A DNA stretch of 45,268 nucleotides from a bacterium BMS3Abin08 (GTDB lineage: Bacteria > Nitrospirota > Thermodesulfovibrionia > Thermodesulfovibrionales > JdFR-85): contig BDTA01000077.1 in assembly GCA_002897935.1 (NCBI GenBank), positions 1-45,268 on the forward strand. Direction: 5' to 3'. The position numbers were made by a program, and so were the translations under genes. This document shows positions 5,462 through 36,736 of the stretch, in pieces; position 1 is the stretch's first letter, and every line of letters starts with the position of its first letter. Under the pieces are notes generated by a model. It ran no database searches. It was not told where the DNA came from and saw only the letters and a program-made list of their open reading frames with translations.

Positions 5462-6904
5462 TCACCCCTTCACAACACCGATGGGCCTGAGCCTGGCCAC
5501 CTTCCTTGATATCCCGGCCCTGTGGACAACGTCAACCACGCTTGATATATCCTTGTATGCCTCAGACATCTCCTCTGCAAGCGTCCTCTTGCCTGCACTC
5601 ATAACATAGATCCCCGCATCCTCCATCTCCCTCCAGATGGCACGCCCCTTTGCCCTCTTAATCGCCTTGTGGCGTGACATTACACGGCCTGCGCCATGGC
5701 AGGTGGAGCCGAACGTCTGACTCATCGACCCTTCGGTCCCCACAAGCACAAAAGAGGCCCTTCCCATATCTCCCGGGATCAAAACAGGCTGTCCCACTTC
5801 CCTGTAGACATCGGGCAATTCGGGATGTCCCGGAGGGAATGCCCTCGTTGCTCCCTTTCTATGAACCACAAGCCTCTTCTTTTTTCCGTTCACAAGATGA
5901 TCTTCAACCTTGGCTATATTATGGGCGACATCATATACGAGACTCATACCCAGAGCGCCCGGTGAGATGCCGAGGGTATTCATTATCGTCTCTCTCGTCC
6001 AGTGCATGATGCACTGTCTGTTGGCCCAGGCATAGTTTGCCGCGGCCTTCATGGCTGCCATGTAATCCTGCGCCTCCTGTGAGCTTATGGGTGCACACGC
6101 AAGTTCCCTGTCCTTCAATCCTATCCCGTACTTCCTTGCAGCCCTCTCCATAACCTCCAGGAAGTCAGTACACACCTGGTGACCAAACCCCCTTGAACCG
6201 GTATGGATCATAACGGTAATCTGGTCTTTGAAGAGACCAAGGGCAGAGGCAACTCCCTCATCATAGATCTCGGAGACATACTGTATTTCAAGGAAATGGT
6301 TCCCGGAGCCAAGGGTCCCCTGCTGGGCACGGCCACGCTCATAGGCACGGTCGCTGATCAGGGAGGGGTCCGCCCCTTCAATGCACCCTCCGGATTCTGT
6401 CTTTTCAAGGTCATCCGGCTCACCCATCCCCTGCTCGACAGCCCAGCGTGCACCCTTCAGCAGGAGCCGTCTCTCCTCGTCCTTTGTGAGACGGATCCTC
6501 CCCTTGGATCCGACACCTGAAGGTATCTTGTTATACAGGACCCCGACGAGGTCCTTAATCCCGGGGAGCAGTTCCTCACGGGTGAGGTTGCTCCTCAGGA
6601 GCCTTACCCCTCAATTTATGTCATAGCCGACACCGCCGGGGGATACAATACCCGATTCCGAATCGAAGGCTGCAACCCCACCGATTGCAAAACCATATCC
6701 GGTATGGATATCCGGCATTGCAAGTGACGACGCAACAATCCCCGGAAGGGTTGCCACGTTTGCAACCTGGCGCACGGCGTCCTCTTCAAGAAGGTCCTCG
6801 AGCCCCCTGTCAACATAGATCACCCCGGGGACATTCATGCCGTCAATGAATCCGACGGGGACCCTCAGGCGGTTCTCATCTATCCTCTGAAGCTTCTCAA
6901 TCAT
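5462..6904 (-). CDS. rtcB: RNA-splicing ligase RtcB, predicted selenoprotein (UGA = Sec98)
   Basis: RtcB joins 2',3'-cyclic phosphate or 3'-phosphate RNA ends to 5'-OH ends using GTP and Mn2+. The frame is open from ATG 6904 to TGA 5462 apart from one internal TGA at 6613-6611, and read through it gives 480 aa, the family length. That TGA falls in [16 protein letters not shown], exactly where the family has the metal-binding cysteine (Cys98 in Pyrococcus horikoshii). Other ligands are intact at nearly the same numbers: D95, H203, H234, H328, and guanylylated H403 in STCHGAGR. Sequence before and after the TGA is fully conserved, so a decayed gene is unlikely. A SECIS-like hairpin follows the TGA. 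The archease gene lies 84 bp upstream on the same strand. An ordinary nonsense mutation or a sequencing error in a Cys codon (TGC/TGT) is the alternative. Confidence 0.88.
6583..6613 (-). promoter_or_regulatory. Candidate bacterial SECIS element in rtcB
   Basis: Directly from the TGA (6613-6611) the minus strand can form a two-part hairpin. A lower stem pairs TGAGG (6613-6609) with CCTCA (6587-6583). An upper 5-bp stem pairs GCTCC (6602-6598) with GGAGC (6594-6590) around a TGA loop at 6597-6595. A short UGA-proximal hairpin with a small G-containing apical loop is the known form of bacterial SECIS. The fold was made by eye. Confidence 0.6.
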
Positions 6905-35858: not shown

Positions 35859-36278
35859 ATGGGGTTCTGGGAGACACTGAGAAAGGACATCAAAAAGGGG
35901 ATTGACGAAGGACTTGAGGCGTTCAAGGAGGGCACCGAGGTACTGAAGCACAAGGCCGGTTCCGTAACCGAAGACATAAAAAATAAAGTAAAGGCATTTG
36001 AACTGAGACAGAAGATCCAGGTGCAGCTCACCGAACTCGGCGGCAGGGTCTATGAAATCTCTTCCGATAAAAGGAAGAACCCGATGCGTGATGAAAAAGT
36101 GGAGAAAATAGTGGAGAGGATAAAAAAGGTGCAGCAGCAGATAGATAAACTGGAAAAGAATGAAACAGGGAAGGCCGCAAAAAAGACCGGGACTTCCGGA
36201 AGATCACGGAAAAAGAAAACCGCAACGCGGGCTGCCGGGGAAACGGCAGGTAAAGCACCGAAAAGGAGCAAGGAGTAA
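35859..36278 (+). CDS. Coiled-coil protein with lysine/alanine-rich tail (hypothetical)
   Basis: The 139-aa protein has an amphipathic helical start (MGFWETLRKDIKKGIDEG), a central coiled coil with heptad-like repeats to about residue 100, and a basic low-complexity tail (KKTGTSGRSRKKKTATRAAG) like histone H1. It could bind nucleic acid or membranes; the family is not recognised. A GGAGG site precedes ATG 35859. Its stop TAA overlaps the next start (TAATG), so the downstream selenocysteine-type glutaredoxin is probably translated by reinitiation. Confidence 0.75.
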   Translation: MGFWETLRKDIKKGIDEGLEAFKEGTEVLKHKAGSVTEDIKNKVKAFELRQKIQVQLTELGGRVYEISSDKRKNPMRDEKVEKIVERIKKVQQQIDKLEKNETGKAAKKTGTSGRSRKKKTATRAAGETAGKAPKRSKE

Positions 36279-36523
36279 TGGAGGACATCACCGTCTTCAC
36301 AAGTCCCACCTGACAGGACTGCCGGGCACTGAAAGGGTACCTTTCGGAAAGGGGCATTCCCTATATCGATAAAGATGTTGCAAATGACCCGGAGGCGCGC
36401 AAAGAACTTACAGGGAAATACGGAAGGATGGCAACGCCTACAATGGTCATTGGCGGGAAGGTCTTTGTGGGGTTTCAAGACAACAGGAAGGCGATTGAAC
36501 AGGCTTTAAGGGGAGAGGGTTAA
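36278..36523 (+). CDS. Glutaredoxin-like protein, predicted selenoprotein (UGA = Sec12)
   Basis: The frame ATG 36278 to TAA 36521-36523 gives 81 aa if the in-frame TGA at 36311-36313 is read as selenocysteine. The active site becomes TSPT-U12-QD-C15, where glutaredoxins have CxxC. The rest fits a small glutaredoxin: MEDITVFTSPT strand, LKGYLSERGIPYIDKDV, cis-Pro in MATPTMVI and GGKVFVGFQDN at the end. The protein continues without change of quality past the TGA. It starts inside the stop of the upstream gene (TAATG). A hairpin fitting a bacterial SECIS follows. Selenocysteine glutaredoxins are known, so this is the expected reading. Its role is thiol-disulfide exchange, with an unknown partner. 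Confidence 0.88.
36311..36347 (+). promoter_or_regulatory. Candidate bacterial SECIS element in the glutaredoxin gene
   Basis: After the TGA (36311-36313), CTGAAAGG (36329-36336) pairs with CCTTTCGG (36340-36347), 8 bp with one G-U, around the loop GTA (36337-36339). The loop begins with G and lies 23 nt after the TGA. The fold was made by eye. Confidence 0.65.
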
Positions 36524-36547: not shown

Positions 36548-36736
36548 TCAGTCCTCCCAGGTAATCGCCTCAACCGGACATGTATCGATCGCTTCCTGGC
36601 AATCACAGGTATCACAGCCGTTTTCATTTGTAACATGGGCCTTACCGTCGTCCTGCATCTCAAAAACCTCGGGACAGACGGCAACACAGGATTCACAACC
36701 CTCACAGAGATCCCAATCAATTACGGGCTTAGGCAT
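36548..36736 (-). CDS. Small [4Fe-4S] ferredoxin
   Basis: The 62-aa protein has CEGCESCVAVCP (C11, C14, C17, C21) near the start and C41, C44, C46 and C53 in the C-terminal half, ending CPVEAITWED. C11/C14/C17 with C53 could ligate one cluster; the other cysteines may hold a second one or form a disulfide. It acts as a soluble electron carrier. A GGAGG-like site precedes ATG 36736. It is monocistronic, convergent with the glutaredoxin gene and divergent from the copper ATPase. Confidence 0.92.
   Translation of the reverse strand: MPKPVIDWDLCEGCESCVAVCPEVFEMQDDGKAHVTNENGCDTCDCQEAIDTCPVEAITWED

Follow-up and report, generated by a model that had tools for sequence, protein, structure and literature searches.

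Glutaredoxins with a UxxC active site, in which U is selenocysteine (Sec), are included in the tables of experimentally verified prokaryotic selenoproteins in reviews of 2022 and 2026, and selenoprotein glutaredoxins have been reported earlier in Geobacter, Alkaliphilus, Moorella and the Sargasso Sea. Thus, this kind of selenoprotein is already known, and the Nitrospirota redoxin of the present study adds another member. The redoxin is encoded in a stretch of 45,268 nucleotides from the bacterium BMS3Abin08 (contig BDTA01000077.1), referred to below as the window, and we are highly confident that it is a genuine selenoprotein of the UxxC, glutaredoxin-fold kind. Compared with the selenoprotein glutaredoxins (PF00462), e.g. 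Grx of Geobacter sulfurreducens and cGrx1 of Alkaliphilus oremlandii, the window protein shows the same fold, the same UxxC site and a UGA followed by a SECIS-type hairpin; however, it comes from another lineage, the Nitrospirota, and its host genome contains no MsrA or GshB matches. Among the NCBIfam models, the YruB family (TIGR02196) was the best, with 74.6 bits (E = 6.8e-21), under the curated cut-off of 88.55 bits, and this model matched 11 of 11 aligned redoxin members. The glutaredoxin-like profiles of the UXX-star selenoproteins (NF041212, NF041211 and NF047338) also cover the Sec site, but their scores of 51.6, 44.1 and 26.8 bits were below the curated cut-offs of 66, 100 and 97 bits, respectively, and the window redoxin, unlike UXX-star, retains the second Cys of UxxC. 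NrdH-redoxin (TIGR02194) is likewise a small single-domain redoxin, whose profile clearly matched and whose structures (4hs1 and 4fiw) are similar, but the score reached 39 of the required 85.75 bits, and no ribonucleotide reductase gene adjoins the redoxin gene. The redoxin enlarges the Nitrospirota selenoproteome, a topic on which one literature search found little that was directly relevant.

The redoxin gene, its neighbours and its orthologs

The redoxin gene (36278..36523, + strand) was delimited using translation with TGA as U, Pfam, orthologs and an AlphaFold2 model. The frame extends from the ATG at 36278 to the TAA at 36521-36523 and encodes a protein of 81 aa that starts with MEDITVFTSPTUQDC. 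The lone in-frame TGA lies at codon 12 (36311..36313, + strand), generating the active site U12-Q-D-C15, and is read here as selenocysteine from the UGA at the same codon in orthologs and the sel machinery of the genome. An earlier, sequence-only reading of the window had described a complete 81-aa frame upon read-through, a TGA replacing the first Cys codon of a CxxC site and a gene missed by a standard ORF caller. Translation confirmed the complete frame, translation and orthologs together confirmed the replaced Cys codon, and the ORF list indeed contains no + strand ORF at this position. Missed by standard annotation and restored through comparative evidence, the redoxin gene offers a clean example of such a recovery.

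The sequence AAGGAG is located at 36270-36275, 2 nt ahead of the redoxin ATG, and the motif TAATG (36276..36280, + strand) joins the redoxin gene to the preceding gene. The coupling proposed earlier from this motif holds in part: the one-base overlap between the TAA at 36276-36278 and the ATG at 36278 is present, whereas coupling is at most suggested by it. The upstream gene (35859..36278, + strand), known from the ORF list and the ortholog neighbourhoods, encodes an unnamed protein of 139 aa with an apparent coiled coil and a Lys/Ala-rich tail, for which nothing above cut-off was obtained in Pfam or NCBIfam. In the orthologs of the window's family, the gene immediately preceding the redoxin is coiled-coil-like, in Sec and Cys forms alike, and a search by motif did not find such a gene adjoining the redoxin in family f13. 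Downstream, a convergent gene (36548..36736, - strand) was assigned to a small ferredoxin-like protein of 62 aa from its translation and genomic context. As a matter of context alone, a similar ORF is found downstream at several orthologous redoxin loci.

Homology extends across the UGA. The Pfam Glutaredoxin model (PF00462) matched residues 4-62, i.e. both sides of the UGA, with 56.7 bits (E = 2.8e-15) against a gathering cut-off of 22.9. In the scan for redoxin loci, a plain single-sequence query returned 0 matches and an alignment-based query returned 20 loci; in whole-genome searches, the orthologs fell into the window's family and family f13 of the same order. Among these close orthologs, the window included, the first active-site Cys codon is UGA in 18 and a Cys codon (TGC or TGT) in 2. 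A separate scan of named records revealed three further Nitrospirota UGA loci and one Zixibacteria locus with UVDC, as well as Nitrospirota assemblies from several projects with largely identical loci. The non-identical UGA copies, again including the window, amount to 21 from Nitrospirota and 1 from Zixibacteria. UGA also occurs in five more distantly related homologs from family f15, within a U..C site. In every aligned ortholog UGA or Cys occupies one and the same column, and the ATPT motif is invariant. When five orthologs were compared with the window over the 63 codons that follow the UGA, 29-36 third positions differed, as against 12-17 first or second positions, a pattern indicating that purifying selection persists downstream of the UGA. 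The redoxin of genome G005 was also considered as carrying a second recoded stop and was rejected; the reported TAA is the end of the gene and the active site is CPDC, a Cys form.

The hairpin after the UGA

The published model of the bacterial SECIS specifies a loop of 3-9 nt, a stem of 4-16 bp, a G among the first two loop nucleotides, a spacing of 16-37 nt and an MFE of -7.5 or lower (PMC13188914). In the present study, the SECIS-type hairpin of the window (36329..36347, + strand) was assessed by folding, by this model, by covariation and by synonymous recoding. The fold recovered the 8-bp hairpin with loop GTA that the sequence-only reading had placed after the UGA: positions 36329-36336 pair with 36340-36347, including one U-G pair, around a loop at 36337-36339. 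The hairpin starts 15 nt past the UGA, and its stem of 8 bp, its loop of 3 nt (GUA), its UGA-loop spacing of 23 nt and its energy of -7.7 kcal/mol all lie within the model. Possible lower stems (36316-36318 with 36358-36360 and 36320-36323 with 36353-36356, + strand) were obtained in the minimum-free-energy fold of the window sequence and are missing from some ortholog folds. Rfam contained no SECIS model matching the redoxin hairpin.

Under a strict filter, requiring a G at the first or second loop position, an uninterrupted stem and -7.5 kcal/mol or better, only 4 of the 18 close orthologs passed, and so did approximately 2.4% of all TGA triplets across the window; at this chance rate, the hairpin alone is no proof of selenocysteine. 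In 6 of the 18 orthologs (L063, L066-L068, L070 and L071), the loop lacks the G expected from the SECIS consensus. The stem keeps a constant offset in 17 of the 18 close orthologs as well as in the five distant homologs, and across 22 aligned sequences 93.8% of cells were paired, with double changes in four pairs. The covariation score of this alignment was reached by 0 of 500 shuffles. Compared with protein-preserving synonymous recodings, the hairpin was more stable, with a Stouffer z of -5.75 over the 18 close orthologs, a value in which kinship inflates independence, and single orthologs ranged from -0.3 to -3.9, often just moderately unusual. In ortholog L029 the usual hairpin is missing, and an alternative with loop GUA occurs 7 nt earlier, at a spacing of 16. 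Since a stable hairpin also occurs nearby in the Cys ortholog L028, energy alone does not tell Sec from Cys forms. The clade shows the exchange of Sec and Cys at a single codon alongside the loss or shift of a SECIS hairpin. In both Cys forms (L026 and L028) and in L029, with its hairpin shifted by 7 nt, YL/YM is followed by K or R, whereas S takes this position where the hairpin is standard; at this point, the protein sequence of the redoxin may be dictated by the RNA stem.

Decoding of the UGA

The same assembly contains selA, selB, selD and a tRNA-Sec with anticodon UCA. The absence of sel genes, which the sequence-only reading had named as grounds for giving up the claim, is thus not the case, and the active selenocysteine system that it proposed is supported by these genes and by rtcB, a second UGA gene in the window. 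The selA gene was present in 18 of 18 genomes with a UGA redoxin, compared with 174 of 395 in a sample of the phylum; this co-occurrence is a weak test because selA is nearly universal within the order. It was also observed that selD (L017) carries a Sec UGA of its own (AAGU-AGK), with a strong hairpin downstream that has 8 bp, a spacing of 17 and an energy of -9.7 kcal/mol.

Several other readings of the UGA have to be weighed against selenocysteine. The codon might be translated as cysteine via a Sec-like tRNA-Cys of the selC* type, and the same genome does contain another tRNA built on a tRNA-Sec body, carrying U73 and an encoded CCA, between yedF and a selenium LysR regulator (L003, G000:C92:10603-10701, minus strand). 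This tRNA is of the selC* tRNA-Cys type, which has been described in Nitrospirae and other groups and in some cases bears an opal anticodon (PMC7609411). However, the tRNA observed here has the anticodon GCA, which does not pair with UGA, a normal tRNA-Sec(UCA) exists alongside it, and selD of the same genome uses UGA as well, making translation as cysteine very improbable. A nonsense change in the Cys codon, either in a pseudogene or through a sequencing or assembly error, would be compatible with the fragmentation of the host assembly into 123 contigs. Nevertheless, the same codon is UGA in many separate assemblies, including the single-contig chromosome CP070737, and purifying selection after the UGA speaks against both a pseudogene and an error. 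The possibility that TGT or TGC had been misread as TGA, the other objection foreseen in the earlier reading, is ruled out by UGA in independently assembled genomes. Taken together, the excess of third-position differences and the UGA in orthologs leave a pseudogene or error even less likely than decoding as cysteine. Finally, we assign a negligible probability to an alternative code, in which every UGA specifies an amino acid, for example Trp; the open frame is compatible with it and nothing else is in its favour, but many ordinary genes of the window terminate in TGA, the genome contains Sec machinery, and orthologs swap UGA with Cys, not Trp.

Selenocysteine is therefore the reading adopted here. 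By analogy with the E. coli system, we propose that the UGA at codon 12 would be decoded by SelB and Sec-tRNA-Sec(UCA), recruited by the hairpin. As in glutaredoxin and thioredoxin chemistry, Sec12, placed where helix 1 begins, might act as the attacking selenolate and Cys15 as the resolving thiol, and the Se-S bond expected between them would be reopened by a reductant.

Fold, reductant and a second UGA gene

The AlphaFold2 model of the redoxin (pLDDT 84.4) has a glutaredoxin fold with U12 directly before helix 13-25, and both features of the thioredoxin/glutaredoxin fold are present: the catalytic residue precedes helix 1, and the TP loop is conserved. PDB matches with TM > 0.8 were obtained, the best in both fold and sequence being dithiol cGrx1 (7c10; TM 0.86/0.93, 40% identity), which we take to be the clostridial selenoprotein glutaredoxin in its Cys form. 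In the work on cGrx1, the protein was reportedly linked to a Sec-MsrA partner. MsrA was considered as the partner of the redoxin by this precedent and was rejected, as no MsrA was found in the host genome. The same genome, which is 96% complete, gave no match to the GSH-S_ATP profile, i.e. no GshB. Without GshB and MsrA, neither glutathione dependence nor an MsrA partnership can be carried over from cGrx1. The label "glutaredoxin" given by the sequence-only reading thus stands as far as fold and Pfam family are concerned, whereas the nearest NCBIfam model is of the YruB type, below cut-off, and glutathione dependence is unsupported and doubtful. The redoxin looks nearer to redoxins of the YruB/NrdH type. 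Because no GshB match was obtained, a thioredoxin-reductase-type enzyme is a likelier reductant than glutathione, and the protein is probably a general UxxC disulfide reductase receiving electrons from such an enzyme. We suggest more tentatively, at somewhat less than even confidence, that these proteins might form a distinct, unnamed selenoredoxin subfamily of Nitrospirota with a Zixibacteria relative, glutaredoxin in fold only, reduced without glutathione and serving a partner specific to these bacteria.

The claim that rtcB is a second UGA-for-Cys gene in the window was also confirmed. The RtcB gene (5462-6904, - strand) has an in-frame UGA at 6611-6613, in the context GYDIN-U-GVR, and the Cys replaced by this UGA is a conserved metal ligand of RtcB. 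The region downstream of the UGA did not pass the one hairpin filter applied. RtcB does not figure in the texts of the 2022 and 2026 reviews, their selenoprotein lists included, or in the deep-Sep paper, and a literature search retrieved no report of an RtcB with UGA. RtcB with UGA is possibly an undescribed selenoprotein family, and it is the more novel lead in the window compared with the redoxin. Among the 15 family genomes having RtcB, the codon is UGA in 10 and TGC in 5, all five belonging to one genus. Many more RtcB frames across the order hold one TGA, counted per frame and whatever its position.
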